Source: Cyrtodaria siliqua
Taxonomy: Eukaryota > Mollusca > Bivalvia > Adapedonta > Hiatellidae
Length of the DNA: 64,000 nt
Assembly: GCA_037043455.1 (NCBI GenBank)
Contig: JAWPHD010010252.1
Span: forward strand, 31,586-95,585
Direction of reading: 5' to 3'
Shown: piece by piece, positions 3,218 through 44,513 of the stretch
Numbering within the stretch: the stretch's first letter is position 1
Layout: every line of letters begins with the position of its first letter
Notes under the pieces: generated by a model
Database searches by the model: none
Told to the model about the DNA's origin: nothing
The model's input: the letters and a program-made list of their open reading frames with translations, nothing else
Translations under genes and position numbers: made by a program

Positions 3218-6200
3218 CTGAAATACAGATATAGTATATTTATCAAATTAAAAACAGAAAATTGGTACTGAAAAAAGGAAAACAGGTCCTTTAGAAAACC
3301 ACAGCTCACGAACACAATGACACCGTAGGTCGCCACTCTACCACACACTTTATTGCGGATTATTTCTTGTATTGCTATGGACGACATTTCATGTTGAGTC
3401 TTTCTCCATTCATACTCTATTCACCAGATACTCAGGCAGGTGTAATTGAAGCCTTTAATGACACCTCTCGGTATCTGGATGACATAGTGAACATTGACAA
3501 TCCTTACTTTTCTACTGTGATTAATAGTATATATCCTAAAGAACTTCAACTCAACAAAGCTAACATTTCTGATACTGTCGCTTCTTTTCTTGACTTACAT
3601 CTCTCTATTGAAAATTGTGAAATAATTACCAAACTCTATGACTAAACTCTATGATGATTTTAATTTTGATATTGCTACTCCAGCAGTGGATGCCGTTACC
3701 ATAAATTTCGAAAACTCTTTGCAAAATTTTATTATCGCAACCCTGATCTACTTTTAAAATATAAGTAATTTAAGAACTCGTCTGCGACAAGGACTATCAC
3801 AAACTGTGAACTGACTTCTATGGTGAGTGTGATTTATAAACTTCATAAGATTCTTGGTCATAATCTCTTTCATACTATCTTTATTTAACTTGTTAAAAAG
3901 TTATCAAAATAGGTTATGACCCTCTCATTTTGCAACGCATTGCATGTTTAGTGATTGACTCATTTACAGTTCGCCACCATGCTTTCCTCTTTGACTGTAC
4001 GATGACCGGACAGAAGGTGGGCTTTATGATGATCTCTGCCTAAATCCTTAAAGGACGGTCACGTTTGGTGCCTTAAATCTTGTCTTATCGTACCCTTAAA
4101 GGTGTGTTCTCTTGTTGATCTGGCTTCTGCCAAGTCAATGAGTAACTTCTTCGTGGCTTCTAGGCTATTGTCTTTTTTTGTATTTATATATACACGAGCA
4201 TCTTTGTGTTTTACTTATATTGCCTATTAATGCTTCCTTGTTTGTTAGAGAATATAACCTGGTGGGGATATATTTATTTATACTGTCACGTTTTATTGGG
4301 ATGACACTAGGGTCACCATGAGGTTTGGTGAACTATAGAACCTGGTTTAAACCCAAGCGGCCTTTTTCGCCACTGGCCGTTCCATGACGGTAGCCCTGTT
4401 GTCGATGCTTTAATAATGTTTGTGATGTCATATCTTTATGAAGAAAATCCTAACCTGAATCTAATTCATCTTTGTAATTGATTGTGGTATGTTTCTGTGC
4501 GTGTTTGTGGTTGACTGTAGTCCTTGAATGCTACATTTCCTGCTCGACTTTTATAACTTTTAATGAAATGAGAAAATTAAAAACTATTTTAAATTAACAG
4601 GACAGTACACAACAAAAAGAGTGTCGAAAACACAAGTTACCTACTTGGAAAAGTCAGCTGGAAATACAGAAACCTTTTTTTCGGATATCAACTTTATGCA
4701 TATTTTCGTTTACAAATTATTCAGTCTAAAACCTTATATCATATCTTCGTTACGATCACAGACAGTTGACACTATAGGCATATAGTGTTCTATGATAAGG
4801 CACACTTTCTGACATTATGTGACGTCATCGTATGTGTTAAATGGAATCTCAAATGCGTGCTTATTTATTATTAAATGAAGTAAACTCGTTGGCAAAAATG
4901 ATATGATGCTCAGCAAGCCGTCGCATCATATCATATTTGCCAACTCGTTTAATAAATTTAAATATAAATAAGCACCAATGTAAGATCCTCTTTTTAAACG
5001 TTCGTTGTCTATTAAATTTAGCATGTCGTGTCTGGGTGTGATTTGCTCACAGAAAATATAAGCAATGATGCCATTAACTTTCGGTGCTTGAGGATTTCCA
5101 TGGGGTGTGGATGGGTAGAGGGGGTGGGGGTCACTTAGCTAGGTGCAATCGTCTAATCCCCTTCGTCATCGTTTAAAGCAAGACCCATATATCACGACTC
5201 TATATGTAAATACTGCCAATAAAATAGGTTTAAATAACAACAAAAACAAACAACAACAAACACAGCAATAACAACGCAACAGAGTCAATCGATAAATACC
5301 ACCGGAAAGCTCATTAATATGTCTCAAAGATTAGGCATACGGATCGCAATATGTTAAAAGTAAGAGAACTGAGAACATTTATTGTCATTATTGTGACACT
5401 CCCATGGCGTTATATTCTAGGCATACAGGAAGTAAATCACTGTGGTATTCATGCCTGGTGTAGATTCATGCCTGGTGTAGTCGAAAGGAGTTCCCAAATA
5501 TATAATCCCTAACTTTTTTTGTGATAAAAGGCATTTTTGAGTATTTAAGGCCTGTTTTTCTGGCTGAAATGACTTTATTGACTTGTTTGTGGTAGCTAAA
5601 AACCATTTGCATGGTTGTATGATGATTTTATTTGTCAACTTGACAGTTTTGAAAGTGAAAGTAGAACACATTTAAGAGGTGCCGAATGAACGCAGTTTGT
5701 TCACGGTATCAACAAAGATCAGAATTTTATTTTCTTATATGCCACATGACCCCTAGTATTCTCAGCAGTTTTCTAGAGAGGCAGGTCTCATGACTAAGAA
5801 CATGTAAGTGAATCTTAGTTTGAACTTCATTTTGAAAAATGGATAACTAAAAAGCTTGCTCAATATTGCATTGGACTCAATGGGATTTGATTTACTTCTG
5901 GTACACCTCTATTAATGATCTAACCAAAAACAACAAAAAAGCTTTCCAAATGAAATAACATGACATTTTACTACCAACTGACACTTGTTAATTAATTGGC
6001 TGCAGGTGATGGACACCTGGGTCACGCATGGACAATTCTGAACACTAATTAACGTCTTCATAAGCAAACAATCGCCTTGGTCATATTTTTGTTTATAGAC
6101 AGGAGTAGGTTTAATGTAAATATCACAAACTTACCAGAAAACATTTATTAGTTATGCAGAATAAAGTCATTTTGGGTGACATTAATACTTCTGTATAGAG

Positions 6201-9200
6201 TACGCAGCATGTTGAGTAAGTAAAGTTGATTTAGAAATGTAGAAGTTTTAGCGAGAACTTACCAAATTGTAGCGTAGGTGGAGGTATGTTCGGAATACGG
6301 AATGGCACTGTTCCTATGGTGATGGGAAATTCTATATGTATCATATCCCCAGACCTTTCACCAACGGCGCATATCTGTAAGCAATATGATTATTACAAGA
6401 CGCTAACTAACAATGTTCATTCATTGTTTACTCACCAATTACTGAATATCCTGTTTTGGTTTAAACATATTTTATTTCCATATTATGCATATATAATAGT
6501 ACAAAGTTAATAGGAGAAAGCAACCTTATAAAGTTCCCCTCCTTGGTATTTAACAAATGCAATTGATGTTGGCGGTTAATACGATATAATAATCTGTTAA
6601 TAAACCCATTTTTCTCCAAAACAATTCCCAGAACAAATGTATAATGTCACGTGCTATATAGATACACTCAATAAATAAAAAAGTATCTAACCGAATCTGC
6701 GTGCAAGGTTAGTTACCTTCTATAAAGACCTATCTAACATTAACAAACATGAACATAAACAGCAATATAACTTTAAATAATCTACTAAAACGTATTGTCT
6801 GTTGCTACTAAATAATCTACTAAAACGTATTGTCTGTTGCTACTAAATAATCTACTAAAACGTTTTGTCTCGTATTGTCTGTTGCTACTAAATAATCTAC
6901 TAAAACGTATTGTATGTTGCTAATAAATAATCTACTAAGACGTATTGTCTGTTGCTACTAAATAATCGACTAAAACGTATTGTCCGTTGCTACTAAATAA
7001 TCTACTAAAACGTATTGTCTGTTGCTACTAAATAATCTACTAAAACGTATTGTCTCGTATTGTCTGTTGCTACTAAATAATCTACTAAAACGTATTGTAT
7101 GTTGCTACTAAATAATCTACTAAGACATATTGTCTGTTGCTACTAAATAATCTACTTAAACGTATTGTCCGTTGCTACTAAATAATCTACTAAAACGTAT
7201 TGTCTCATATTGTCTGTTGCTACAAAATAATCTACTAAAACGTATTGTCTGTTGCTACTAAATAATCTACTAAAACGTATTGTCTGTTGCTACTAAATAA
7301 TCTACTAAAACGTATCGTCTGTTGCTACTAAATAATCTACTAAAACATATCGTCTGTTGCTACTAAATAATCTACCAAAACGTATTGTCTGTTGCTACAA
7401 CTGTATACAGGGTGGCGAAACGACGCGACTTCTTGATCAGTTTCACGGCAAAAAGTGTAAACCAAGGGCTCGATTCAGGTTAGGATTTTCTTCATAACTT
7501 TCTTAATATTTAACGAATTTTGTTCAACTAACGCGCAAACGTGAGGCAATTTGGTTCATTCAGTGCTTTTTGAGATTAGCTCTCTCAAAATGTACACGGT
7601 CATATATTTATTTCGTTTCCAGGACATTGGGAGGGCTAATCTCAGAAAACATTTGATAAATCAAATTACCATTTGCGGAGGAGGAGGGGAGAGCTCACTT
7701 TACTTTGGAGGGGTATGTGCACTTAGGTTGAATACAATTCGATATATTTACATCGCTAGTGCAGTCGCTACGATGAATCTTATTTGACACGCTGCATTTA
7801 ATTTTCCAATGAATACCATTACCTTCGGAATACCTCATGATATGCCCTTTAACGGTTTTCATTGGATGATGGGCGGAGCTTAACTTAATAGAATATTGCG
7901 CATGAGGGGTGCGTCTAAAATATTGCCGATCGTAACGGCTATTACATTTTACTCCATAAAAATCCGGTATAATAAACTATTATTTCGAAATAAATAGTAA
8001 ATCTGACGTACATAGAGAAGAAATCAACGCCATGTTAAAGGTAACTATGTATGTAAATATAAGGAATGAAATGCGCTCTTTTGGTTTTCATTGGGGTATG
8101 ACAAATATTTGGGTGGTTTAAAGTGTGTGGACTCCACGCGTACTTTAAACCATCCAAATGTCTTCGGTCTCCACACACTTTAAACCACCCAAATATTTGT
8201 CATACCCCAATGAAAACCAAAAGAGAGCATTTCATTCCTTAAAACTTATCAAGCGTCTTGTTTACACTTTCTTTGTCGTGAATCCGATCAAAATGTCACG
8301 TGGTTTCGCCACCCTGGTATAAGTAAAATTAATTTGAAAACAATTTCACGAAACTCGGTGAAGTGCATTCAGGAGACGTTATTTGCTAATGGATGACTAA
8401 CATTTAATTTACAGCAAAAATAACATTTAATTACAGCAAAAATAACATTTAATTACAGCAAAAATAACATTTAATTACAGCAAAAATTATGGAACGTTAT
8501 TAACGTTAACTACCTTTTGGATAGGCTCTGCATTTTTTCTTTGAATAACTTAATTTCCTTTCATATTTTGAACACAAAAATGTTATGTGTGATTTTTGTT
8601 TATACAATTTGTTTTATTGACCACAAACAAGGCGATTTATAAAGGATCTTACATGAGTACTCATTCATTATTGAATTTATTAAACGAGTTGGCTAAATGA
8701 TATAATGCAAGGCTCTTTCTAACGAGTTTAAATTCAATAATGAATGAGAACGAGTGTCAGATTCTATTTATTACATAACTTATAACGTATAATTACGTCA
8801 GAAAACGTACATGGACGTCATTAACGTTATGTTATACCACAAGTGGAATATCGAAAATATTGAATGGTGTTATTACACTCCCACACCACATATTATGTGA
8901 TAAGATTATTTACACTAAATAAATGCTAATGCTAAACATAAAGCAAATGTTTCAATTAGGTGTTAAACCGTTACCTTAAGTACATAGTTTATCCGTATCA
9001 GATTGCACACGTTTATCATTGTGGGTGGAGCTACGGGTACTTGTAGTGTGTCTTGCAATTTATCGAGTCTCTCTGTGTGTCGAGGGGACACGGACTCGGT
9101 CTGATACTCCCAGATCTTGTGATTCACAGTTTTCACCAGCCCCAGTACTCCCTTGTTTATGTAATAATCAACATACTGAAAATGAAACGAGGATATATAT

Positions 9201-12200
9201 GTATGTAAACTGGCGGTTGGTCTGAAAACTCGCCACATGCCTCACAGAATGAAAACAACAACAACAACACAGTTTGAATAACTGTGGAAGATATTACTAG
9301 TGAAAAAAAATAACGCAAAACTTTAACGTAAAAGTTAGCTGTCAAACATATTTTGACTTAAATACTTTCTGTGTGGGAAGCTTATAATGTGCTTCCATTT
9401 AGTACAAGCATCAAGAAAACTCCATTTACAGTTCCCCACTATGCTTTCCGGTTTAATTGTGCGATAACCGGTCAGGATGTTGACCCTATCAGGGGCGTAG
9501 CTGGGTGAATTTGAACTGTACGCCCGTCGGGGTTCCAAGGGTCAACCGCCCCTTGGTCAGGGGGCTCTTGCCGATTGTACGTTAGATTTCAGGATTTTTA
9601 GCTTAGATTAAATTTGTGTATAATTCAAGCGAAAGAAAGCGCACATGTAAAGTCAATTTAAAAATAGTATACATGTATTAATACTTTGTATAACAAATTA
9701 GGATCGGAAACGACTCGGCTGGAAATATTTTACCCCTAATCTTCTACCCCACTTCGGATTTTATTGCATTTTTGGATCATTTATCTTTTCCATTTTTCTA
9801 GCGAACTGTACGCCCGGGCGTACGGGTGTATGCATGGCTAAGCGCCTGCCTATGATGACGTCTACCTAAACCCCAAAAGGACGGTGACGTTTGATGTTTG
9901 TCAGCAGTCTTGTCGTGCCCTCAGTGGTTTGTTCTCTTGTTGCTCTGGCTTCTGCCAGTCATTGAGTACCTTCTTCGTGGCTTTCTATGCTATTGTTTTT
10001 GGTATTTATATAGACACGAGCATTTTTTGTGTTTTACTTATATTGCCTATTAATTCTGCCTTGTTGGTTAGAGAATAGTGCATGGCATTTACGCTGTCCC
10101 GTTTTACTGGGATGACAGTAGGGTAAGTGTGGGGTTTGATGCACCCTAGAAGAACCTGGTTTAAACCCCCAGCGGCCTCTTTTGTCACTGATCGTTCCAA
10201 GGCGGTATCCCTATTGTCAACCCTTTTGTGTTTGTGATGTCTTATTTGACCTTTTATTCATATTTAAAATTGTTCTTTGTTTCTGTGTGTTTGTGGTTGA
10301 CTGTCGTCCTTGAATGCTACTTTTCCAGTTCGATTTTTTATATCTTCTTAGACGAGATCAGTGAACGACAGACGCATATATAAGACGACATCCGCCATAA
10401 TTGACCTTATAAACATTCTAAAAACGTTACATGCTGTGGACATACAGTCGACACACTGTATCAAGAAATATCTATAAAAAACATTGTTTGGGAACATAAT
10501 ACTAAATTACACTACATTGAGTTACAAACGGCAGCAATGCCAATGGATGTTAGCTCACCTGAGCCGAAGGCTCAGAGGGGAGCTATTGTGATCACTCATC
10601 ATCCGCCGTCCGTCGTAAACTTTTTCTTCAAACAGCTTCTCAAAATACCCAGCTTATATTAGTCAATCTTCACATGGATGATCATTAGGTCGATGGTTTC
10701 AAAACCTGTTAAAACTAGATCTTAGATGGCGACCATTACTATTAAATGTGCAAACCTTAAAACATGTTGTCTCAGGAACCAATGAACAGATTTATTTCTT
10801 TATTAATGACCGCCAACCCACAGACTATCATTTCTTTTAAAAAGACCGTGTCACGGTGGTCAAAATGTGTACATAAACAGTGTTCATGTAAACAGTGTTC
10901 ATGTTTTACATAGACATGAAAACTTGAAAAATCTTCTCTGAAACCAGAAGGCATAAAGCACTTAGCATTATCTTATATTCCTCTAGTTATAAAGGAATGC
11001 CGTCTTTAAAATTACGAGAGAGCTAGAGTTCTCATATATTGCATGTAGCATATATTTATAGTCCTCTACCAAGTTTGTTCATATAGTGACCCTGGGGTAA
11101 AATTCGGCACCGCCCTAGAGATCACATGTTTCAACAACAAGGACTTGTATCAGGAAAAACTTAAAACATCTTTTTTAAAACCATAAGGTATAGAGCGCTC
11201 ACATATTGCATGTAGCATAGGCATAGGATGCCCTACCAAGGTTGTTGAAATAGTGATCTTGAGGTCAAATCTGGCCCAACTCCTGAGGCCATACTTTTAC
11301 AAAAAGTAATACAGGAACATGTTGAAAAAAAAATTCTTTTCTGAAACTAGAATTTAATGTTGTTTAACGGCTCATCAACACAGTATAGGTTACTTAGAGC
11401 CGCCCCAGAGAGAGAGGAAAGATACATAGGAATCCGGGAACCGTGCCCTGCTCTTATTATCGAATAGATTCCTATGGCTCTTTAACGTGCTCGGAGGACC
11501 GATACACGGGACCGCCCGGTTTACGTCCACATCGACGGACGCGGCTAATTATACAAGTAGTATAAGCGTATAGTCCTCTACCAAGTTTGTTCAAATGTTG
11601 ACCTTCGGGTAAAATTCAATCCCGCCCCAGTGGCTTACTTTTTACAGACTTGTATAAAGAAAATTAATAAATCTTATTCTCTGAAACCACAAGGTATAGA
11701 GCTCTCATATATAACATGTAGCATAAGCCAATGGTCATTTACAAACGTTGTTCAAATGGGGACCTTGGGATCAAATATAGCCCCATCCCGCGGTCACAGT
11801 TTTAAAAAGGAAATGGTTATATAGGAGCATCTTTTAAAACAATATTCTCTGAAATTACAAACGCTGGAGTTCTTATAGTATGCATGTGATATATGATCCT
11901 CTACGGAATTTGTTCGAATGGTGACCCAGGAATCATATTTGGCTCCACCCCAGGGTCACATGTTTTACATATTTTACAGACTGACATTCACACTAGCGTG
12001 TGTTTAGTACTGTGTGGCGGCTGTAAAAAGTAGCCCGACTACAAATCAGTAATGTTATTATACTCATCCTTTATGTCTTCAAGCCCAATCTCTGTGCTTT
12101 TAAAGTAGAATACTGCTTAACCCGGTGTTAGTGGGCATGAGCTGTTTTGCACCTTATATTACTTCTCATGAACAGACTTAACAAAACCGAGTCTGTTACT

Positions 12201-14848: not shown

Positions 14849-14896
<48 letters not shown>

Positions 14897-17800
14897 TCAA
14901 TGCTGATTCAACGTTGTTTTTACCGATCAGCGACTTTTTAAAAATATCAGCAATTTATAAAATGCGTTTTTCAATAGTAATATTTACACGAGTTTAAGAA
15001 AAACACAGTAAATTGAAACAGCGTGTCCCCTTAGAAATAATTAAGTGAATGTAAATGTTTTATATTGGAGATTATTTCGCTATTCCTTACCAGATATTTA
15101 TCCTCCATACAGTCAATATGCGGACCAATAACAGTGAAATATTTGATTCCCTGTGGTGGGGATGCGTATGGAATATCCATTACTATTCTCAGGTAGTAAC
15201 GCACGTGTCCCACTTTGCTCTCAAACGAGCACGGCAACGCCGTCTCGGGTAACTTAAACTCAAATGGGTAACTGTGGTTCCCCCGGGGCAGGATTGGGTT
15301 GCCCCCATCTTCGTGTTTATCTAAAATAATATAAGGATAGCAATTGGAAATCATGTTTATAGGGAGACGTGATTATTATTTGCGTACCGTTTCTCTTTCA
15401 GTCGCATCCAAATCTAACAAGTTATAAATAGTATTTGGTAGAGTTATAAACAGACAAACTTGTTCCTCGTGTTTGTTGCTTCCATGAAATCCCCATTTCA
15501 GTATTTATTCATTATCTTTTCCGTGAGACAAAATACCTGTCTTGTCAAATTCTTGTAAACTCCGCCCCGAAAATGGTTAATAAAGTATTCAACATTGACA
15601 TTTTTTAATGTTCCATGACCGAAACAAAGAGCCACAAGAATATCTCGCGAATGCGATCCTGGTTGATATTTGTAAAGAAACTGTGTGGCTTTAAAATAGA
15701 ATACCACTTAAGCCATGCTAGGGGGCCTACGAGGTGTTGCGCCTTATATTACCTCTCATGAACAGACTCAATAAAACTGAGTCTGACACTTTTTCTACTT
15801 TTTGTTTGCTGCTTTCAATGGAGCCGCTTTTCAGTATTTATAGACATTCACACTAGCGTTCGTTGAGTGTTGTGTGGCGGCTGTAAAAGGTCGCCCCGAC
15901 TACAAATCAGTAGTGTTCTTACTTACAGGTCCTTTAGGAAGATCGAGCCCAATTTGTGTTGTCTAATTTAAAGAAGAATTTCGCTTAAGCCGGTGCTAGG
16001 CGGCATGAGAGGTGTTTTACCTTATATTACCTCTCATGAACAGACTAAATAAACCGAGTCTGCTTATTTTCTCTCTTGTTTGTGTTCGTTGCTTCCAAGT
16101 TCAAGTGATCCCCTGTTCATTATATTTTATACAAATCCTACATAAGCTGAAGTTGGCATTTCTGAGAGTAAATACTGCAAGAAAGCCATTATGTCATCAC
16201 GAAAAAGAGTCTGAATCATGGGCTGAATCAGTGTTGCTAGTTTTAGTTAACATACCCTACTATTTGTTTGGAGTGACTATACGTTACGTTGACATTTTTG
16301 AGAACCCAAACACAATTTGTAATAAAAAGTGACAATCTGAAAGTACATAAAACCAATTAACGGTGTAGTCACGATACGTTGAAACCTGGAAAGCGGTTGT
16401 ATCGCATACTTGCATATAAATATTTTGTTTGTGAATATACGATACGACATACATGTAGCTAGTCATATCAGTCAGGATTTAGTTGCCGGGCAATAAAGTT
16501 TTATCACACGGGTGAAATAAAGGGTAAACAAGGTCCTATCGCGGAAATAACCGCATGTTTTTCCGATTTGGGTCCAGCACCTCGACTCCTTTACCGGAGT
16601 GATACGGACATTACCGATTAGTTAGGATTGTATACGATTTGTTACGTATATGGTTTGTCGGCTTCGTTTTATTCGTGCTTCCATTCTTTTTTCGCGCCAG
16701 ATTATTGGCTATAGAGTCATTATCCGTGGATGAAATTAACCACTTTTATCATGCAGATATGCACTTTTCTGCCCAATAAAGGGGTGACCTATTAAATTTT
16801 GCTTTATTAGCCACTGACCAATAGAGCAAATCAATGCGGAATCCCTCGGCGTTTATTGTACGTAACGTTATCTGACGTCATGCACGTAACGTTACATGAC
16901 GTCATAAAACAAACAAAAAACAACAACATGGCGGCGTCCTCGATAAGCGTAACATTCGGAGAAATAGATAATAATAGTAATTCATACAGAAAATGTGGAT
17001 AATCTACATGATAAATAGAATATTATGTCAGTGCCTTTTACTATCAAGTTTATTAGGCTCGGCACGAAAACGAAGAATGGCTCGGCAGAGCCTCATCATT
17101 CTTCGTTTTCTAAGCCTCGCCTAATAAACTTGATAGTAAAAGGCACTGACATAATATTCTCTATATAACCATTCGTTTTCTTGAATAAGCTTCATATTCA
17201 ACGACATTCATTTTAAATCAAGTTTCGGAAAAAAAAGTTGTACACCACGCCGCAGAGATGAACACATCCGATATATATTAATAACATTAGTTTATCCCTG
17301 GAAAACTACGTAATGAGTTAACTGAAGATGACAGTTCGACAAAGTAATTGCTGAAGTATATGATAAATAGAATAAATGTTTATTTTCATATCACACCCTT
17401 TATCAGGCCCTCGACTCATATCAGCCCTCGAGCTAAAACTCTCGGGCTGATATGGCGTCTCAGGCCTGACATAGGGTGTGATATGAAAATATGCATTTAT
17501 TATTCTCTATATACTATGTGTTATGCATATTTTGCACCCGTTTATTCATAATACATTTTATATGTAAACTCAGTATACGTATATCAGATGACAAAAGATA
17601 CCTGACAGGATAGGATAGGTTAAATTATAGTTTTTAATTATTTATCTGAAGTTCGAGTGGTCTGTATAAGAGCAGTCTCAGTTAACCCTGGAGTAAAGCA
17701 GTCTGACTGTCATCTTAAATGGGAAAATATTATATTTCTAAATATCTCCAAGAAATAACAAAAATGTATATTAATTATTCAAATATGAGCAAAAATGCCC

Positions 17801-20394: not shown

Positions 20395-20762
20395 CTGTAA
20401 AAACAACAACAACAAAAACAATAACTATGTGCATATGTTTAAAAATCTACATGCGCAGTTTCTTCTTCAATTGATTGACGTGTTGTAAAGTCATATTGGT
20501 TGTGTAATATATACTCGTTCGTGATTGGTGCAATTTTCTGTTTATGTCAAAGAAAGAATGTCACGTGATGTAAACAATGTAGATTTCATTCATGCTGTAG
20601 TCATTTCGAATATTTCAAATGATACTAGTATCGATCGAGGGCTAGAATGGATTTCATTGTGCACATTCTCACGATGTTACGAACTATGTAATGAAATATA
20701 TTTGTTTCAATGTTACAATCTATTTTATTGTTCTAATTTAAAATTGTGTATGCAATAAAACG

Positions 20763-20889
20763 GTTACTAGATTTATATAGGGATATATGCACTCGTTCTT
20801 TCGCGCATAAATATTGCGCTCCTAAAGTCGCGCAATATTAATACGCGAAAGAACTCGTTCATATATCCCAATACAAATCTAATAACCTA
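20763..20889 (+). repeat. CTCG-type palindrome (arm family D)
   Basis: The arms include GGATATATG, TTCTTTCGCG and AATATTGCGC. The outer CTCG pair is at 20792-20795 and 20854-20857; the inner pair is decayed to CTCC 20819-20822 and GTCG 20827-20830. Both are centred on 20824.5. It lies just upstream of the first recognised ARRDC exon. Confidence 0.85.
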
Positions 20890-21251
20890 TAAATACTAGA
20901 ACTTTAAAATGGTACTAACTCATGAATATGAATGAGTCAAGGGTGAAGAAGTTTCGGATGGAAAAAACCATCCTAACATTTAGTATATAAGCCAGAAAAC
21001 GATGCGTACATTATCAAGTGTGAGCTTAGCCTTCATACAGGTAACATCGATAAGTACGGTTTTTGCATTTATTTCACTAAGTTGTCATGGAGCGGAATTG
21101 GAACCAGGAACCTTACGGTCTTATTAGCATTTCTAACACTGAATAAGGTATTACATAATTAGGAACTCGCGCACACCCACGCACACATTTATTAAATATC
21201 GAGATGAAGTACTTTTGAGACAGAATACCAGTTTCGTTAATAACTTATACA

Positions 21252-28472: not shown

Positions 28473-28475
28473 AAT
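28020..28475 (+). pseudogene. Internally deleted non-LTR retrotransposon with (TATC)n tail
   Basis: 28085-28215 reads IDGKPVKFD, a stop, then EHAEDGLSVVYWNCNGLTTV, resembling the start of an ORF2 endonuclease domain ('WNCNGL'). After about 28245 the sequence jumps to an AT-rich 3' UTR ending in AATAAAGTATC followed by tandem TATC, a common 3' end for non-LTR elements. The endonuclease and RT bodies are missing. Confidence 0.6.
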
Positions 28476-28620
28476 ATTGGTGTTAAATTGTATTGCTAAA
28501 GTAATCCGAACCAACCAACCAACCAGTCAGCCAGCCACCCACCCACCCGACCGACCGACCGACCGACCAACCGACCAACCAACCAAACAACCAACCAACC
28601 AAACAACCAACCAATAAATT
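28440..28620 (+). repeat. (ATCT)n then (CCAA/CCGA)n microsatellites
   Basis: 28443-28473 is the (TATC) tail of the retroelement relic; 28505-28617 is a compound CCAA/CCAC/CCGA tract. Confidence 0.95.
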
Positions 28621-31400: not shown

Positions 31401-31401
31401 C

Positions 31402-32213: not shown

Positions 32214-32961
32214 GATGTGCAAGGTACGTAAAAGAACTGCAATTACTAATTATCTTACACTCGTAGAATAAAGATTTTAGTCACTATTATTAAAATAGAA
32301 ATTATATAATTTATATTATAATTCAGAAAATCACGGAAACTGTATTCAAAAGACGTATATATGTAAGTGTTACAATGCATTTTATGATCAGTTAACGATT
32401 TTGCAGTGATCTGCTTATAATTATGGTAATTTAGAACTACACGTATGACTTCATAGTTCTCAAAGTTGCGGCTTCCATATGCGTTTTAGAACAACCTTCA
32501 ACTCATATCTTCTTTGTTTATCATCCGATTTTGATAATTATTTTACTCTTTTCCAGTTTATGTTTTCAGAACTTCCAATAATAACTTGTTTGGCTGTATG
32601 CCTACATTCCCTTTAAAGTGCTACAGACGCCGTGATAACCGCAATACGGGATCTCCATACTACTTTTTATAACAAGTGGTTCGCATATGGCCCGAGTGGA
32701 GTACTGTTGCATTACTTACATCTATGCAATAAAACGGAGCACGCTACTTCTACACGTGTTTTATTTGGGTTTAAACATTGCCAAGAAGCTCTGTAACAAA
32801 CTACCGAAACGCGAAATATGCCGCCATTTAAACAGGTTATGAAAATCACAGACATAATTAGGTCTGTGTGAAAATGTACACGTGACATATTCGTTTTTAT
32901 CTGGACTGAAATAACTTGTTTTTTTTGCTTGTTTTTTTTTTTTTGTTAGTTAGTTAGTTAA

Positions 32962-33002
<41 letters not shown>

Positions 33003-33940
33003 CAGTATAGTTGGTTAGTTAGTTAGTTATTTTTTGGGTTTTTTAAAAAAGCTGTAAGTAACCAATACACTATCATCTTTGTTAGCGAGTTTAATAAATG
33101 AAACCATGACTTATTCATGAATTCCTGGAAATTTTAACAACTAACTCATTAGCCCAATATAATAAATCAAAGATAATACAATGCTGCTAGCTCGGCTCAA
33201 TGCGATGTTTATGAGAGTCAATAAATATGAATAGCAACCAAGCTTCCATACGGAGATAAATTGATATTCGCCTCTTTAGTTGGCATACTCAATAAGGGTA
33301 GATTTTTTTTGTCATTGCTGTGTATACTGAGAACGCAAGCGCATACTTTGGGTAACTTTATTTCGACATGTGCAAACTTTTTTTGAATTTTTTTTAGTCG
33401 TTTTTTTTAGCCGTTTTTTGACGACCCGTTTATTCTAGCCGTGTTTTGACGACAGTCAATAGGTGGAGCAAGGGTCGTGGAGGAGTGCAAACTCGGCCAA
33501 TCCCATTCTTCGGGATCGTGCAGAAGCAGTGATCGAGATGTTACGAATGTAGAGTAGTAGGCTATCTAGTTATGTCTTATGTTAAATGCTACTTCATGAT
33601 CTGGAAACAAATAGTATTTTACGTGCAACTGATCTGTAAAGCTGCGCTAGTAGCTGGAGATAAGCCCTTGTTTATGGTTACTAATGCACCATGCGAAGTA
33701 GGTAGTATTGTATGTGATATGTTATTATCGGCTGCAAATAATGAATATGTTCCTGAAACCTGGAAATAATGATAGTTTTGAGATCGAAACATAGTCGCTA
33801 TCTTCAAAGTGGGTTAACATATATAACTAGATCTACTTATTAAAATTCTACTGGGTATTATAAGAGAATTTGTAAAGTACCGTGGAAGAGTGAGGTGGTC
33901 ACATTCATGTGTGCCACTATGACTGTCTGGACTCGCTTTT
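32214..33940. other. Gene-free stretch
   Basis: Outside the (TTAG)n tract I see no supported gene. A 65-codon frame at 33572-33769 has a protein-like C-terminal half (KAALVAGDKPLFMVTNAPCE) but no homology I recognise and no splice support. Confidence 0.5.
32938..33032 (+). repeat. (TTAG)n microsatellite after a T run
   Basis: About 20 units with few interruptions. Confidence 0.95.
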
Positions 33941-34390
33941 ATATACAGGCTCGTCAATCAGTAAAACAATTTGAAACGTGCAGAATGTTTTCTCCAAACG
34001 TTAATCGCATGGCCACTACATAGGACATCAGACTGGTGAAATTCAGCCCATTGAACCCAGTGCAAACTAAGCTCTTTTTGGAGAAAAAAGAAAACTCCGA
34101 TTCAACTTTCCGTTCAGTCATAATATGCCTATTTTGAAATAAACATGTCAAAGCCATATCTTTATATATCCTCTTTGCTTATACTCTCTAAAGAACACAG
34201 TAAAATATTTGCTATTCATGACAACAGATATAACACTTTAACACCAGATTAACTTTTACTGCATGTGAAATGAAATTGAGTCTTGAGACAACACATTCAA
34301 ATTAAAAACGTTGGCTTTTTCCATGGAACTACTTCAGCATCCTACGACCCGGAAGTACTTCCTTACCGGTCTGACGCCGTAGGATACGTG
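33940..34390 (+). repeat. Dispersed repeat Q, partial copy 3
   Basis: 'gactggtgaaattcagcccattga' matches 22747-22775, and 'aacacagtaaaatattt..attcatgac' plus 'acccggaagtacttcc' match 23730-23970, with the middle missing. Confidence 0.6.
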
Positions 34391-35170
34391 AAAATAGCAC
34401 CGTATCATCCCTGAAGATCACCCTATAATCCAGGAATAGCACCGTACTACCGCAGAAAAACACCATATTATGTCATAAGAGCACCGTAATATCCAGGAAA
34501 GGCACCATATTTCCTGGAAGAGCACCGTAATATCACAGAAGAGCATCATGTTATTCCGTAAAAGCCGTAATGTTCCGGAAGAGCCACGTAATATATCAGA
34601 GATCTCCATCTTATACCGGCAGAACACACTATAATTTCGAAAGAGCTCTGTATCATCCAGGAAAGTACCATATTATCCCGGAAGAGCACCGTATTATCCC
34701 AGAAGAGACCAAACTATCTCGGAAGAGCACCGTAATATCCCCGAAAGGCACCATATTATCCCAGAAGAGCACCGTTATATCACAGAAGAGCACGATCTTA
34801 TACCGGAAGAACACATTATTATTCCGAAAGAGCACTGTATCATCCAGGAAGAGCACCAAATTATCTCGGAACAGCACCGTAATATCCCACAAAAGCACCA
34901 TATTATCCCAGAAGAGCACCGTTATATCACAGAAGAGCACCGTCTTATACCGGAAGAACACACTATTATTTCGAAAGAGCACTGTATCATCCCGGAAGAG
35001 CACCACAGTATCCCGGAAGAGCACCGTAATATCCCGGAAGAACACAATATTATTCCGGACGACCACCGTAATATCACGGAAGAGTACCGTAATATTACAG
35101 AAGAGCACCATAATATCCCGGAAGAGCACAGTAATATGCCGGAAGAGCACCGTAAACATATATAAAACGT
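34380..35170 (+). repeat. 21-bp minisatellite open on both strands
   Basis: Unit close to AAGAGCACCGTAATATCCCGG (21 bp), about 37 units. Because 21 is a multiple of three and the units lack stops, a 215-codon plus-strand frame (34570-35217; heptads like RKSTVIS) and a 182-codon minus-strand frame (35201-34653; FRDITVL heptads) both stay open. A larger unit of about 170-190 bp recurs. Translation is not supported by splice or promoter signals. Confidence 0.9.
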
Positions 35171-35479
35171 CTAAAAATGGACCAACAAGTAAAGTGCACA
35201 TTGTATATATAGTATAATTAACTGATTTTGTTAATGTTAAATATTTGTCGGTACGGGATTTTAAAAAGCAATATAGACAGAAAGAATTTAGTTCAAAACA
35301 TGATAACCATTCTGCTCAAGTTCGCCAATGATGTATGTGTAAGGAAGTGAAGAACGTTATCGTGAAACAGAAGCGTGTTGACACAAAACATTCCATAATA
35401 CGGTGGCTATAACTTAAATCATATTCTACAATCTAAAAAAACATGCATACAGTTCTCTGTATTCAGTTGTAACTGAACA

Positions 35480-35770
35480 GCATGTTGTTTAACGGCTCAT
35501 CAACACATCATTGGTTATTTACAGCCGCCCCATAGAAATGGGAAGGAATACATGAATACGAGTACTTGCTCTATTCTAACTAATGACTATATTGATATGG
35601 TTCTTTAACCAGTGGATAGAGTATGACTCACAACACCACTGAATTTACGTTCCCATCCGACGCACGAGGCTAAGCCCAAAAACGCACCGAGGAAACTCAG
35701 TGGCGCCGATAAGGCTTGCATCCGGATTTCAAGTTCATTGTATTATCCCCATCGCCAGCCCCACAATGAG
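35480..35770 (+). repeat. Dispersed repeat 'aacggctcatcaacac', longest copy
   Basis: It starts TGTTGTTTAACGGCTCATCA and ends near 'tcatccggatttcaagttc'. It includes 'cccatccgacgcacgaggctaag'. Non-coding. Confidence 0.7.
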
Positions 35771-36509
35771 TTATCATAACGTCTATGGTGAGTAGCATAC
35801 ATAATGTATAAGTATTGTTTACATTCGTAAACATACATCGTAATACACGTACGAATCAACGGAAAATATCGATCAAATATGCTTTATAAACATAGCTCAC
35901 CTTATCTAGTCCTTTAAAACGTGAGTTGCTACACAAAGACACATCGTGATGGCACAGTTCCCGCGTAAAACCTTTAAGTCTGTCAATTGTCCATTATAGT
36001 CCGTTCGTCAATACAGATCGTCAGCATTTAACCATAATGCGAGTATCGAATCAATACCAGTATTGACAAATTTTATGACCAACAGCATCACCATATATTG
36101 TTTCTGTCTGCGCATGCGTATAGAAGATTTTACTGGAATATGATCGCAAGATAAATTAATAATTAATATTTACGCATTGGGTTAATTTCATTATATGTAA
36201 AATAAAGAACATTGCTAATAGTTGGCAATGGCGAATTACATTGTATTTGATTAGTTATTGTTGACTGATGTGGTATCGGGGACTGATTGTCTTGTTATAT
36301 GAAAAACGCTCGTGTATTGCAGCACGCGTAATAAATTGCAATGTTTACAGTATGATTAAAAGATACAAACGAAACAGAAACAAGAAGAAAAACGCTCTTG
36401 TATGGACATATGATTTGCACGTTCATACCAATCATATAACTACAGAAATAGTAATAAGCTACAGATAGCCTATATCAATGAACTACAGAAAGCACAAACT
36501 TTAATCCCT

Positions 36510-36700
36510 TGCCTTTAATAGATTCATATGGTTCTTTAACGTGCTCGGAGGATAAACTCTGATACACGCCCCCATCTGACTAACGAGACTAAGGAAAACT
36601 CACCGACGAAACTCAGTGACGTCGGTGAGGTTTGTACCCGGGTCCTCCAGACGGTTTCAAGTCCAGGATAATATCCACTGGGCCACGTACCTCGTAGTCC
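36510..36700 (+). repeat. Dispersed repeat, partial copy
   Basis: 'gattcatatggttctttaacg', 'tgctcggaggataaactctg' and 'ggtcctccagacggtttcaag' match the second half of 35480-35770. Confidence 0.65.
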
Positions 36701-36749
36701 GAAACATAACAGCCAATATGTGTTTCCATGAGTGAACTCTTACTAACTG

Positions 36750-36845
36750 ATAGTCATTGAGTACTTGCTTTGTGGCTTTCTAGGCTTCTGTATTCTCATA
36801 TATACATGGTCATCTTTTTGTTATACTCATATTGCCTATACACTT
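36750..36845 (+). repeat. Fragment of the YLDD RT element 3' tail
   Basis: 'cattgagtacttgctttgtgg ... atattgcctata' matches 9958-10045 of copy 2. It ends directly at the (ATTG)n tract. Confidence 0.65.
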
Positions 36846-36847
36846 AG

Positions 36848-36849
36848 TG

Positions 36850-36926
<77 letters not shown>

Positions 36927-37025
36927 CTTGCTTGATTGATTGATTGATTGATTCATTCATTCACTCATTCATTCATTCATTCATTCATTCATTCATTCAT
37001 TCATTCATTCACTCATTCATTCAAG
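36848..37025 (+). repeat. (ATTG)n then (ATTC)n compound microsatellite
   Basis: The unit changes from GATT to TTCA at about 36953. Confidence 0.96.
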
Positions 37026-38490
37026 TTTGTTTACATTTTTAAAGAATGTACCTGATCTCGAGAAATAGACAATTTTCAGTAAGAAAATCTCGTTTTGCTT
37101 GTCAGTTAACGTTAGTTTCATTCTACGTTCTATGTTTTTGAATGTTGGGTATAGTTTATATATATATAATTTTAAAAATCCATTCTAAACGTATAAGGTT
37201 ATAGATTTACATACAAATACAAAATGATGCTCTCATTTTTAAATCGTTATATTTAAAAAAATTATAAACACATTCTCATTTGGGCTATAAACGGTCGCAA
37301 ATTTCTTGGTAAATGCATACAAATTGATAATTATTCACATTTACTTAGTACATTTAATAACTCTTGTTTGTATTGCCTCGCATAATAACTGTTATGTTTA
37401 TTTACAGTATGCACTAATTCAACTGAGTCTATATGACTGATAATATAAACAACCTAAACCAGTTGATGGCATAATCGCAGAGAAACTCTCATTTTGTATG
37501 TCGGGAGTTATCCATCTTAACCAGTTATTAACAAAAATCTAAAGGTCGACTCAGAAATGTTAAAGGGACACATGGCAATCTTGAGTTTTATTCAAACATT
37601 AAAATTTGCTCCTCAATTTAATTATCCTGCGTCATTTTGACTTTAAAACTGCTTGCATATGATTAAATAAAAAAGAGATTTCAGTTTTCTTCACTATTTC
37701 CCCAAATTTTTAAACATATTATTGATGCACTATTACAAAAAGTTAGCAATATATAAAAACAATTCGCTTTGAACTATTCTAACAATTACTTTTAATGATT
37801 GAACAAATGCAAGTAAAGAGAAAAACTAACGGGACGCCGTGAGTTTTTAAAGAATCAAGATTGCCGTGTGTCCCTTTAAGGAAGCATAACTACTAATCCC
37901 ATATTTCATACTTGTTAATTCGCGGATACATGTTGATGTTGTTAACTAAACCAACGGTACTTGGGATCTCGCAATATGGAGGTCCAAGGACAAAGGTGGT
38001 CCAGTGCGATATTGTCTACGGGTACGCCATCAACATCACGTACAGTTAGTGAAACGATAAACAGAATGATTAAACAAAAGAGACTTCTTATCGAAAAAAA
38101 TTATATTTCCCCACGCTCATATACCGAGAATATACTATTTTATTCTATACCTAATTTATACGTCCAATCGTAGACGCTCATTCGAATCACGTGACCGTAC
38201 AATATATTCCCGTATCGGGACGCACGCGCGTACAAAATAACCCGTATTCTTTTCGTATTGTACGATTCACAGGTCCCATGTTAAACCTATGATAAAGACC
38301 GAAGCGCGTGAAAAGGTTCCGAATGAAAGTCTGAATCGACCAAACTTGTACAGTAGTTAGATATCCATGAAAGCTCGGTTCCTTTCGAAAAACATTATTG
38401 TTTCCTATTGTTTTGAAGGTATAAAATAAAAAGGTCATTTAACATTATTCTGCATAATACAAAATATATTTTAGGGAAAAAGTCGAGGTA
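37026..38490. other. Gene-free AT-rich stretch
   Basis: No repeat or gene is recognised. 37961-38173 is a 70-codon frame without supporting signals. Confidence 0.55.
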
Positions 38491-38491
38491 T

Positions 38492-38665
38492 AGAATAAAA
38501 AGATCATTTAACAGTGTTCTGTACAATACGGAATATATTTGGACTCGTACACAGCTTGGAAAATCATATTGGACTCGCCTAGCGGCTCGTCCAATATGAT
38601 TTTCCAAGCTGTGTACTCGTCCAAATATATATCCGTATTGTACAGAACACTGTTAAATAACCTAT
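38492..38665 (+). repeat. CTCG-type palindrome (arm family E), intact CTCG set
   Basis: The arms include AACAGTGTTCTGTACAATACG and an inner arm TACACAGCTTGGAAAATCAT. Four perfect CTCG tetramers lie at 38544, 38574, 38586 and 38616, all in plus orientation and exactly symmetric about 38581.5 (counted from tetramer starts). A partial extra copy of the left arm lies at 38413-38470. Confidence 0.92.
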
Positions 38666-39479
38666 AAGTATTCGCCGGATAACTACACGGATACAATACC
38701 AGATCTTCAGGAATATTAGCGTTAACTCTCCACCGACAAGGCTATCCACAGACATATTAATAAACAGATAGGAAACTTCCTATCTTAACCAATGAAGTAA
38801 CCAAAATATCACGTGGCACCTTAACTTTTCCTTCTATCTCCTCTCTCAATTATTCACCGATTTTGATGAGAATACATTCAAACGATTCATAGTGAATAGC
38901 GAAATGGTATTATAATAATTTATGTTTATTTTGAATGTAAGAAATTGTATAAAAAGATGTTTAAAGTTAAAAATGTCATAATTTTTCGCTTTTTCTTAAA
39001 AATCAAGGTTTTGACATAGTCAAAGTTTCCGTCAAACTCCTTTTTTGCTCTAAATGTAAGAGTAAGAAAAATACTATCATTGTAAAGAAAATTAAATTTG
39101 TGATGGTATTTGGCATGAATGAAACTTGTATCTATAAAACTCTTCATAATATGTGTGTTTAAAGTTGGGAAATCATTTGTGAAATTGTCGCACTGTGCCA
39201 CGTGAAATTTAGATAATTTTCGTAGTGTCCAATTTATTTGTTATTAGGTCTGTGGGCTATCATAACGTCTATGGTGACTTGATTTACAAACTTAGGCAGA
39301 TCTTTGGCTGGCCCGGTCTTGATTTGATTTTTTTTCTATGACCGAGATAATTCCATATTTTTTTATTGCGGGTTGAAGGGGTGGGGTGGGATGGGGTGGG
39401 GTTGGTGGGGCGTGGTGTGGGCTGGGACAAGATGGGGTGTTCAGATATGGCTGTTTGTCTTATCTGAGCTTTTATCATG

Positions 39480-40450
39480 ATATTAAAATTTTGATTAAGT
39501 TTGGATGGTGACCACAGTGAAAAATGATGTGTTTGTGTGTGGTGGGGGTGGTGAGGTGGGGTGCGGATTTGGGGGTGGGGGTAAATGGGTGGAGAGTAGG
39601 CGGGGTCAGATAATGCTGATTCTCAAACGTGTCCGAGCGGTTAATGATGTAAATATTCTAAAGGATTTGGACAGATCGAATAAAAAAGTATGAACCTTCA
39701 GAGTTAACAAAGTAAAGTTTAGTATTTGTTACCTTATTCAAATGGATGGGTGGGTAGACATGGCTGGTCCAAGATTTTAGTGATGTTAACATTCTAAACA
39801 AGCTGACAGAGATCAAAGAAAAAACTGGCGTCAAAGCAAAAAAAAGGATTTTTCATTCAATCAAGGGCAACAACTCTGCTGTTTCTGCTCAAATTTGGCT
39901 GATTATTTAATTTGTTCAACATTTTATTTATATACACTCTGACCAAGGTAGGTAAAGATCAGATGAAAAATGAAGTAGCTAGAAATTTAACAAGGTAGAC
40001 TGAAGCATATGTTAATAAATCAAGGGCTATAACGCTGATGTTCCAAATTTAATCTGGCTGGTTTTCGAACTTGTCCGATGTTTGAACGACGCAAATTATA
40101 GCATTTTTAAATAATTCAAGGGCCACAACTTTGCTGGTTCTTTTCTGAAATAAGTTTTCGAAATATTCCGAGCTTTTAACAACTTTAACATCCTGCCAAA
40201 GTTTGGTTAAAATTGAAGGAGCTAGAGCGCTTTCGAAGCAAAAAATAGCTATCAATAAATTAAGGGCCATTACGCTGGTGTTACTAATTCGATCTAGCTG
40301 GTTTTCAAATGTTTCCGAACATTTATTAATATTAAGCCACTGATTTAGCTCGTAAATATTGAATACAAAATAAAGGCGCGAGAGTGTTAAGAAAGGTGAT
40401 GTCTTTTTCCCAGTTAAACAAGGGCCATAACTTTTTTCCTTACCATATTT
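39480..40450 (+). repeat. Degenerate ~150-bp tandem repeat ('caagggccataac')
   Basis: 'caagggc(a/c)a(c/t)aac..tgctg', 'ctggctggttttcgaa', 'ttaacattct' and 'agctagagcgc' recur at about 39866, 40023, 40119, 40262 and 40422. Confidence 0.75.
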
Positions 40451-40860
40451 TTATGTATGCTCGATTGTTGTGGTACTTGTTTGCGTGTTTATTTTGTTTG
40501 CATACATTATGTATATTGTTGACGTATATACCATGTCTGTTTGTTGACATTGACAAGTAAATTGTTCACGTTAACTGTCCAGAACATTTAAGATCATTAC
40601 GGAACATTGAAGAACAATGGAAAACACTGAAGAAAACTGTATAGCACAGAAGAACAGTATAGCATATTAAAGAACAATATTATACCTCATTTGCATATTC
40701 CGCTCTTTGTTTAATGTGACGTCATCCGGTCCACAAAGTTGCATATTGACCGGGCGCCCGGTCCGATAGCTATATTAACGGACGTGTGAAAAAAACGACG
40801 TTAAAATAAATCATAAAACGTATTGATTTAATTTTGGTCAGATTCGGTATAATATAACAA

Positions 40861-40945
40861 ATAATGTATGGTGCTTCTGTCCATATGAAGTTTATGGACT
40901 GGGCAGTCCATAAACTTGCATATGGACCTCAGCACCATACATTAT
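40861..40945. repeat. Palindrome, ~40-bp arms, without CTCG
   Basis: The arms run from ATAATGTATGGTGC through GTCCATATG and AGTTTATGGACTG. A 3-4 bp mismatch lies where other palindromes carry CTCG (left TCTG, right CCTC), so a decayed member is possible but not shown. TGACGTCA lies upstream at 40717-40724. Confidence 0.75.
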
Positions 40946-42300
40946 CTGTTAAGTATAGAATATGCTAGACATCAAATATAAGGAACATTCCAGACATCAA
41001 TGGACGTTTATCCTAAAATGCACTGAAACATACTATAAGGATCTAATTATGTATAAATAAGTGTATTGTGTTGATATATTTCTCAGCAGTATACTTTATT
41101 AGCGCTTAATTAAACATTCGCAACATCTCGTACGCTGCTTCGCAGCAAATCGCCCTGTTTTTTAAAGAGTAACATTTCATTTATTAAATCATATGCTTCG
41201 TTATTTGAAATACTGCTATAATTAATGCATACAGTTTTAAAATGTTTCGTGTCAGAATATATCTACGAAAAGCAATAGAAATACCGAATGTGTCTAAGTA
41301 TATAATATATGATTATAACTGAATATTCAACAGCAACACTCTGTTACATTTTCTGTTACAATTGTGTACAGTGTAACATTAAAATTAAAACAAAAAGTAT
41401 TAACTATGAATCCTGTAATTTTAAGTTTGAGTACACATTGAGTTTGAGCATGGAAACAAGCTTTATAAAATCGAAGCTAGATTTAAATAAAACACAAACA
41501 ATTAATAAAACCACAGACACATGTCTAACAAAATACACATTTAAGCTATGTACAATGTTTCAGCATTCTTTCTAGAAACTTAAAATCTATGGAGGCCACT
41601 GAATGCCAGCCTAAGACTCAATTTATACAAACTTAAAGAGAAAAGTATTTATTTTCATCTGTTAGTTTGTCGATCAAGTTCATAGTCAGACACAAACTGT
41701 GAAAATATGTTCACTAAAACACATGGAGGTCTAATTACACTAAATCAACAGGATGTGCTCGCCTGGTGCAGTCGAAAGTAGTTCTGTATTAAAGAGTGCT
41801 AATCTTTTTTTCTTTAAAAACTTTTTTTAGTGCATTTTCCTGTTATTTTTTGGCTGTAACTGTATTCTGTACATGTTGTTGATATTTGAAAATGCAGCTC
41901 ATCATGTTTTGACAGTTTTTGATATAAATTTGAGAAGTGAAAGTAGACAGGGTATGAAATTGCAAGGGGTAAAAATAGTGTTGACCTTTGACCCGGTGTT
42001 AGTATACAACTGAAGAAATGTTTATTAGAAGGTATTAAACCCCCTATTTCCTTGTTGATGTTTAATAGCAGACATGTTTATTTGCATGATAAAGTAAGTT
42101 TCCCAGAATTCTAACGAGGTTTGAGTTTTTAACAGGTTGTCAACATTCTAACTTTACTATGGAAGGGCAATGGAGACTCATTTACGCTATTATAACCTGG
42201 ATACTAACAAACTCATAATCATAGTCACTGGGTTGCAACTGGTATTTTCCCCCATCGTACTATTGTATCAATAACAGCTCTTCTGATCCGTATTTTCTTC
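40946..42300. other. Gene-free stretch
   Basis: Only the dispersed repeat at 41755-41960 is recognised. Confidence 0.55.
41755..41960 (+). repeat. Dispersed repeat shared with 5450-5680
   Basis: 'cgcctggtgcagtcgaaagtag' through 'gagaagtgaaagtagacag'. Confidence 0.65.
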
Positions 42301-42495
42301 TTATCAGATAACTCATGGTGTGGGAGTGGAATAATTGTCATACACCACTAGTTATATAAGTATGCAAATAAGCCTAGTATGCGCTTTCCAAAAAAAATTC
42401 GATAACGACTATGATCCAATTCCCTCGATTTATGTCGGTTTCGCTTGTTATAATGCGACAGGCAAAATGCAATAAAAGTCGATATGTGAGTTATG

Positions 42496-42655
42496 TGATA
42501 AATAGAATTTAACATTCGTTCTCATTCATTATTAAATTTATTAAACTCGTTAGCAAAAATGATATAATGCTCGGCAAGAGCCTCGCATTATATTATTTTG
42601 CCAACTCGTTTAATAAATTCAATAATGAATGAGTACTCATGTAAGATACTCTTCA
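42496..42655 (+). repeat. CTCG-type palindrome, arm family A, three concentric levels
   Basis: CTCG at 42546 and 42605 (outer), 42570 and 42582 (inner), and a decayed outermost pair TTCG 42515 / CTCA 42636, all centred on about 42577. The left end is TGATAAATAGAAT at 42496-42508. Upstream sequence (about 42300-42480) resembles the flank of the copy at 8642, sharing 'ggtgtgggagtg'. Confidence 0.92.
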
Positions 42656-42750
42656 CGAAAATGCGCAAGTCGTACAAAAAATGGTGGTCAAAACAGTACT
42701 CGTGATTGTACAAGTCCACTAGCATTTTCGTAGCTAACCAAACATCAAAT

Positions 42751-43032
<282 letters not shown>

Positions 43033-44176
43033 AGTTACTGTATGCAGATGATGAAAACATGACTAATCTATAAAGAGAGATTGATTATGATAATGGCAAC
43101 TATGATAAAAATGATTATTTTCATGTGTTTGATTAAATATTGATGACATTACACTGATCTTATTTTTTCAGATTATACATGTACACTAAATATACATGTC
43201 CGTATTTTTACAATTAATAAAAAGGGTAGGTTTAATACGAACATTTATTATTTTCTTCATTTTTAATCATAGTGATGTATTACGCAATCTTATACACATG
43301 GTAGCAGTCAAAGGTTTATCTGAGTTGTAATGCACACGCCAACGCACACGCATCCCTTACATGTGAACACTTTTCTGTGCTGATGTGTGCTTCTAGCACG
43401 TCGTGCTACAAAGGTGAATATGTAATCGATATGTAACGCATGTCAAGGATTTGACCAGAGCGAAGCGAGGTCGCCCACCTTGATTCAAAATGTTTTGTAG
43501 GAAGAACTGATGGTAAAAATTGGGAAGAAAGTGTATGGTAAGAAAAAAACGTCGTGGCGTGTTTACGTCTTTGTGACAACATTTTATTTTCAACACCCTT
43601 GACTTGGTCGGTTATAATGTTAAACTTTGTTCCCAGTTCCAAACCAGGTAAAATACTATTTTCTCTCGGCAGCTATTTTACGCTTGCGTAAAACCTTGCT
43701 TGTATTTCTTAAAATTACAGTGCTACCAGTGTACAGGTATGATGTGCACTACTATATGCCCATAAAGTAAAGGATGTCCCGCTATAAATGTGACTGCTTA
43801 AATTTCCAAAATCGTCATGATATGTCGAACATGACGAACACGCCTACACAGAGGCTGCATTGACCTTGGTTCGATTTCCACAACTTTGTAAAAAGTGTTC
43901 ATGTAATTGCCTTTTTCGTTAAAAATACGTAAAATTACAGGCCTTAAAGTGTTAAGATCTGTATTTACAGTAATGATTTTAAATGGCAGTTTTCCCATTA
44001 TCAGGATAGCGATAATAAGCGTATTTGCGGCTATAACACTTTTACGACTAGTTATTGACGTATAATGACATGTTTTGTAACATGTTTATATGTGTGATAT
44101 ATACATATATTTATTACATAACAGTCATAAATTTACATTGAACTATGAATGATGTAATTTTAGTATCACACAAAAA
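43033..44176. other. Gene-free stretch
   Basis: No supported feature between the CTG tract and the TCACTAGTGA palindromes. Confidence 0.55.
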
Positions 44177-44243
44177 AAGTTATATATCGTCACTAGTGAT
44201 GATATAACTTTTTTATATCATCACTAGTGATGACATAACTTTG
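44177..44243. repeat. Nested palindromes around TCACTAGTGATGA
   Basis: Two copies of the palindromic TCACTAGTGA core are each flanked by AT-rich inverted sequence (aaagttatat / atataacttt). The copies also form direct repeats. Confidence 0.7.
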
Positions 44244-44331
44244 CCGGAACTACTTTCTTAACATATTTGTTAAAAAACACACTGGTTTAAAGTTAAAATA
44301 TTTATTAATTTCTATTTTACGTAAAGTTATA

Positions 44332-44513
44332 TAATAAACAGTATAATTAACAGCATAAATTTGATACTGAATTAAGGTCACTCGAGGAAAAAAGTGGTAA
44401 TCTGGTTAAAAAAACTCGTTCTTCGAACTCGTTTTTGTAACCAAATTACCACTTTTTTCCCCTCGTGACATAAATTCAGTATCAAATTTATGCTGTTAAT
44501 TATTCTCTATATA
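44332..44513 (+). repeat. CTCG-type palindrome (arm family F), intact CTCG set
   Basis: Long arms: TTAACAGCATAAATTTGATA plus an inner arm around AAAGTGGTAAT.TGGTTA. CTCG at 44381, 44415, 44428 and 44462, exactly symmetric about 44423. The right end ATTCTCTATATA is at 44502-44513, matching families B and C. Confidence 0.92.

Follow-up and report, generated by a model that had tools for sequence, protein, structure and literature searches.

The stretch of DNA analysed here, 64,000 nucleotides (nt) from the bivalve Cyrtodaria siliqua (contig JAWPHD010010252.1 of assembly GCA_037043455.1, positions 31,586 to 95,585 of the forward strand; hereafter the window, numbered from its first letter), is nuclear DNA of animal type, with ~35% GC and a CpG observed/expected ratio of 0.94. 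It contains eight palindromic elements (A to H) in which CTCG tetramers stand in direct orientation at mirrored positions of the two arms. An initial annotation, made from the letters of the window, had pointed these palindromes out; all eight were confirmed, and the pattern was above chance in a bubble scan that prescribed no letters. Throughout, the strand carrying CGAG is taken as the element strand and CTCG as its complement.

Elements and their G.A bubbles

Element F (38493..38671, minus strand) and element H (44331..44515, minus strand) each contain two intact CGAG/CGAG bubbles; the stems of F are nearly perfect and its base is merely similar to the shared one described below. The mirror-symmetric CTCG tetramers of both (38544/38574/38586/38616 and 44381/44415/44428/44462) were confirmed by re-reading. 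Element A (4836..4996, minus strand) has a CGAG/CGAG bubble, and CGAC/TGAG near the apex. Element B (8634..8774, plus strand) has an outermost TGAG/CGAG bubble and a CGAG/CGAG bubble, and its inner stem is lost on one side. CGAG/CGAG and TGAG/CGAG bubbles are present both in element C (17008..17169, minus strand), which is homologous to A, B and G and shows double changes in its stem, and in element D (17360..17515, minus strand). Element E (20752..20897, minus strand) combines CGAG/CGAG with CGAC/GGAG around a 4-nt apex, and element G (42497..42657, minus strand) has an outermost TGAG/CGAA bubble and two CGAG/CGAG bubbles. Seven of the eight elements share one orientation. A palindrome at 40855-40951 with a TTCT/CTCA bubble was considered as a ninth member and rejected, as it has no second bubble and its base and centre do not fit.

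The mismatched spots had been described as four bases long. Their mirrored position stands, but the mismatch in CTCG/CTCG is confined to TC opposite TC, the outer C and G being paired. Read on the complement, CGAG is opposite CGAG, giving C-G, G.A, A.G and G-C, which we take to be the tandem sheared G.A motif in its typical closing context. This motif stacks inside RNA and DNA helices; tandem GA mismatches are named in the title of a 1994 paper by Walter, Wu and Turner, cited in PMC5393185. Both arms had also been said to read CTCG, from which several bubbles depart on the CTCG strand; examples are CTCC/GTCG (element E) and TTCG/CTCA (element G), where the closing pairs are retained, and CTCA/GTCG (element A), where one is lost.

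Over 26 bubbles of 13 elements (n = 52) the closing pairs, tallied by eye, were 43 C-G, 5 U.G, 2 U-A, 1 swapped C-G and 1 C.U, with no A.C. TGAG occurs 8 times in these bubbles and CAAG once (another CAAG lies in the broken apex of B); a single CpG gives rise to both tetramers by equivalent changes. Of the related copies, B has TGAG/CGAG as its outermost bubble, G and L005 (a relative outside the window, below) have TGAG/CGAA there, and A has lost this bubble. Of 100 mismatch combinations evaluated in this context with the RNA energy table, GA/GA was tied best at 1.70 kcal/mol (with AG/AG and AA/GG) and UC/UC ranked 83rd at 3.80 kcal/mol. With DNA parameters the gap was small (GA/GA rank 14, 3.50; UC/UC rank 90, 3.90). 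The CGAG strand gave the more stable fold in 8/8 window elements, by 3 to 17 kcal/mol.

The bubble scan located symmetric 2x2 mismatches between good stems. It was applied to the window, excluding 57.8-61 kb (strict stems) or 54.9-61 kb (relaxed stems) of tandem array, and to a held-out set of 29 further 10-kb stretches (290 kb) from three contigs of the same genome, which the initial annotation had not seen; the strict scan covered the first 24 of these and the relaxed scan all 29. With strict stems the window gave 13 bubbles, of which 6 were TC/TC, all of them CTCG/CTCG, and seven other kinds occurred once each. Relaxed stems gave 15 bubbles, 8 of the CTCG/CTCG kind and again one each of seven others. 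In the held-out DNA 29 bubbles of 17 kinds were found with relaxed stems; the CTCG/CTCG kind was the most frequent with 4 (L005, L022 and two places in L024; three loci), two kinds had 3 matches each, all in one repeat of L020, and every remaining kind had at most 2. The strict held-out scan was weaker, with 2 of 21 bubbles of the CTCG/CTCG kind, behind 3 of TC/TT (two of those at one place). CTCG/CTCG is the commonest bubble kind in the window and, with relaxed stems, in the held-out DNA.

Five clear elements were identified in the held-out stretches (L005 8006-8134, L022 3565-3795, L024 352-458 and 2436-2541, L015 6188-6356), together with decayed relatives at L026 6572-6745 and L004 7471-7591. 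Their density is ~1 element per 40-60 kb of the 290 kb, compared with eight in 40 kb of the window. Palindromes lacking the motif also occur: one at 8060-8241, with 72-bp arms of 99% complementarity and no CTCG, is likely another foldback element, and a long, nearly perfect one without a G.A bubble lies at L015 5850-6010, near the L015 element.

Covariation, base and spacing

The arms had been assigned to six unrelated sequences. This did not hold: over its whole length C (17008) can be aligned with A, B and G. In the alignment of these four on the CGAG strand the bubbles occupy aligned columns. A, B, C and G descend from one sequence and have diverged with both arms changing in concert; with L005 they make up the subfamily that shares arm letters. 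Changes on both sides were found at 21 of 53 pairs, compared with a mean of 7.1 in shuffles (0/500 as high), and 94.5% of cells were paired against 84.9% when shuffled, counts that are inflated by the kinship of the four sequences. Sliding the partners by 1-3 columns left 1-3 double-changed pairs. In the main helix 13 double changes were transitions on both sides and 2 included a transversion; of the other steps there, 6 involve wobble, 3 A.C and 6 other mismatches. The corresponding numbers of double changes in the second helix, where the alignment is less safe, were 2 and 4. The alternative that the eight palindromes come from one ancestral sequence whose arms simply diverged thus applies in part: at least 4 of the 8 share an ancestor, but their arms diverged together. 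A covariance model built from A, B, C and G scored E at 51, D at 66, F at 76 and H at 86 bits, and missed E with default filters.

A common base is recognisable in most elements, with TATAGAG 5' and CTATTTAT 3' on the CGAG strand, the latter extending to CACATAAC in G and L005. Convergent TATA boxes were considered as a possible meaning of this base motif. TATAGAG is exact in C, D, H and L005, has one mismatch in B, L022 and L015 and two in A and G; in E and F the base merely resembles it. The 5' base motif of C, in the ATATAGAG region (17154..17169, minus strand), has identical letters in D and H, and the 3' base motif of C, ATTCTATTTATCAT (17008..17021, minus strand), in D, so that the base of D equals that of C on both sides. 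The shared base is ~7-14 nt long in most copies, and beyond it the arms are unshared except in the A/B/C/G/L005 subfamily.

The distance from base to first main bubble was 40 nt in A, 40 in B, 39 in C, 42 in D, 42 in F, 40 in G and 39 in H, and 40 nt in L005, L022 and L015. Ten of the 12 elements measured thus fall within 39-42 nt; the set of 12 omits L026, which has no readable 5' base, and L024b, and in B, G and L005, which carry an extra outermost bubble nearer the base, the main bubble was used instead. The inside part between the bubble halves is free in length, from 10 nt in L005 to 68 nt in F and 77 nt in H. A TATAGAG (up to one mismatch) ending 38-43 nt before the bubble was found in 8 of 13 elements and at 20 of 2638 other YGAG sites (Fisher p 6e-14), the motif itself having been derived from window elements. 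Of the held-out elements L005, L022 and L015 match, L024b does not, and L024a matches by virtue of a second TATATAG alone, which is probably not its base.

A possible second stem, formed by the left flank with an outer inverted partner, was assessed with two queries. The longer one gave p values of 0.01 (C), 0.05 (B and G) and 0.14-0.88 (the other five elements); with the shorter one p was 0.02-0.05 in B, C, F, G and H, and 0.45-0.98 in the remaining A, D and E. The candidate of C falls in a promoter-like stretch adjoining that element (16745-17000), which has two TGACGTCA sites and a CCAAT-like site. Sites of the TGACGTCA/CCAAT type also lie to the left of A and, less exactly, of B. A 36-bp block, 83% identical between its two copies at 8870-8905 (minus strand) and 42299-42334 (plus strand), lies to the left of B and G, 110-200 bp from the base; it contains the base letters inverted (TTATCACATAA) and may belong to a longer element.

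A proposed folded strand and competing explanations

These elements probably represent, on balance, one dispersed repeat of ~105-230 bp, non-coding and hairpin-forming, whose CGAG strand is recognised in its folded state through the base and the G.A motif. Folded on itself, that strand would form a long hairpin. Its parts, from the outside inwards, would be a recognisable base (TATAGAG-like ... CTATTTAT-like), an outer helix of ~40 bp, an internal loop of tandem G.A (CGAG/CGAG) and an inner part whose length is free and which usually ends in a few bases enclosed by a second CGAG ... CGAG. A partner would recognise two places on the folded strand, the base and the G.A motif, at a fixed distance from each other, so that the letters of the stem could drift while remaining paired. 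On this reading the tetramers are direct because they form the two sides of one internal loop, and do not represent a failure of the palindrome: a direct tetramer needs no special insertion event, and the folded CGAG strand requires it. The repeat is presumably mobile. It is tentatively possible that the elements belong to a seemingly undescribed kind of multi-copy family, of structured RNA or single-stranded DNA, that is defined by geometry: on one folded strand a tandem G.A box would lie ~40 nt from a base box, the two serving as a ruler read by the partner while the stems drift but stay paired.

The folded molecule would more likely be RNA than single-stranded DNA. Stem mismatches on the CGAG strand of the window elements comprised 17 G.U and 4 A.C (p 0.007), equivalent to 17 A.C and 4 G.T on the CTCG strand; counted by eye, with events common to A, B and G entered once, the figures were ~15 and 4. 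The same count in seven other palindromes (40855-40951 among them) gave 15 and 15.

Several observations weigh against a recognised, folded strand. The excess of G.U was not replicated in the five held-out elements (9 G.U, 7 A.C, one-sided p 0.40), although the pooled counts of 26 and 11 retain a one-sided p of 0.010; because of this failure the excess is weakened as a proof of RNA, and the case for RNA is suggestive only. Six control palindromes also differ in stability between their strands, by up to ~21 kcal/mol and in either direction. The spacing is broken by E (29 nt) and L024a (11 nt), and the base strings from which it was measured were chosen by hand. Intact cores are over-represented in the bubble and tetramer tallies because the elements were found through them. 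In the covariance search D and E score no better than motif-free palindromes, which reach 66.5 bits (four control regions, filters off). The model was accordingly rejected as proof of homology for D, E, F and H, whose homology is drawn mainly from base, bubbles and spacing. Finally, no consistent direct repeat that could be a target duplication was found at the presumed ends of the eight window copies, these ends being approximate; no transcript or partner protein came to light either.

Two interpretations had been offered in the initial annotation. That CTCG is a conserved recognition site fits the data. The other proposed nested insertions, in which palindromic elements with a central CTCG lie each within the CTCG of the level outside it, flanked by a 4-bp CTCG target duplication. 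Nesting accounts for the direct tetramers and their exact mirror positions, and a palindrome with one central tetramer, the empty state it calls for, was absent from the window; among the 29 stretches L024 ~352-458, which has a single CGAG at its apex, is compatible with it. L005, which carries the outer pair with just 10 nt inside, is compatible with nesting too, but is equally explained by deletion of a hairpin centre, as seen on one side of B. Blastn at E 0.5 gave no clear second copy of any inner segment other than those among the related A, B and G and, for G, a 29-bp match at 33071-33099. We consider nesting very unlikely: the bubbles occupy aligned columns in related copies, and the closing pairs change jointly (TGAG/CGAA in G and L005, CGAC/GGAG in E) where nesting predicts that the tetramers decay independently. 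The outer arms, moreover, are unlike each other with no CTCG between them and the shared base, so that arms change in place, and the fixed distance from base to bubble is not predicted.

Covariation could also arise without function if one arm were copied onto the other, CGAG/CGAG surviving as a tolerated tandem G.A with no selection on folding. Correction of imperfect palindromes by arm copying is known, and the near-perfect motif-free palindromes nearby, such as 8060-8241 and L015 5850-6010, are consistent with it. Copying does not predict one particular tetramer, a shared base or a spacing of 39-42 nt; AG/AG, which is equally stable, was seen once in the window, in an unrelated palindrome, and does not figure among the eight most frequent kinds in the list for the held-out DNA. 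This explanation is quite unlikely. An ordinary DNA transposon derivative, its base and CTCG being double-stranded transposase sites at the outer and inner ends of ~40-bp terminal inverted repeats and its folding incidental, would match the short, dispersed, non-coding copies, the conserved terminus, the ~40 bp to a second motif and the spacer of free length. A site within inverted repeats should itself be inverted, whereas CTCG is direct on both sides; most copies also have no common arm letters, and the inner part is palindromic too. We regard it as unlikely.

Known systems and neighbouring sequences

Miniature inverted-repeat transposable elements (MITEs) and foldback elements resemble the present repeat in being short, dispersed and non-coding with long inverted repeats (eight copies in the window, five and decayed relatives in 290 kb). 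Copies of one foldback or MITE family normally share their arm letters; here most arms are unlike, and the base, tetramer and spacing are kept. Tandem sheared G.A is a structural motif of helices that is here carried by a repeat family, and we know of no repeat family defined by it. MicroRNA precursors share the long hairpin, but they are not known to have a conserved base or conserved G.A bubbles. A lax Rfam scan of the two regions holding C, D, G and H returned generic precursor hairpins below threshold at the elements, and no match to a known microRNA precursor family near its gathering score.

Retrozymes (PMC4918200) are similar in being non-autonomous repeats for which RNA structure matters. 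Their mark, the hammerhead ribozyme, was not found: Rfam at the gathering threshold, run over the whole window, gave no family at the eight elements, its single match being the SECIS_1 hit described below. A tRNA-like head, as in tRNA-derived short interspersed nuclear elements, was not found either, ARAGORN, a program not designed for decayed heads, reporting no tRNA in the window in a bacterial setting.

No description of such a repeat family was found in the open-access literature searched, mostly by multi-term queries that could miss one. Repeat finders based on sequence would split this family into unrelated palindromes, and, should geometry be the conserved feature, families of this sort would generally be missed. 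The CGAG bubble with its spacing is a simple search key, and it raises the question of which partner binds the base and tandem G.A fold.

The remaining features of the window lie apart from this subject. An exon encoding an arrestin domain was identified at 15034-15372 (E 6e-17), and a weak match to reverse transcriptase was under its cut-off. The long tandem array at 55061-60900 has a 32-bp period and many short inverted repeats within it. Further tandem repeats are located at 61031-61478 (period 56 bp), 6704-7460 (35 bp) and 34531-35217 (21 bp), the last with open frames on both strands, such as a repetitive one of 228 residues. A SECIS_1 match at 9844-9909 (plus strand), barely over its gathering score (36.4 against 35), is outside all elements.

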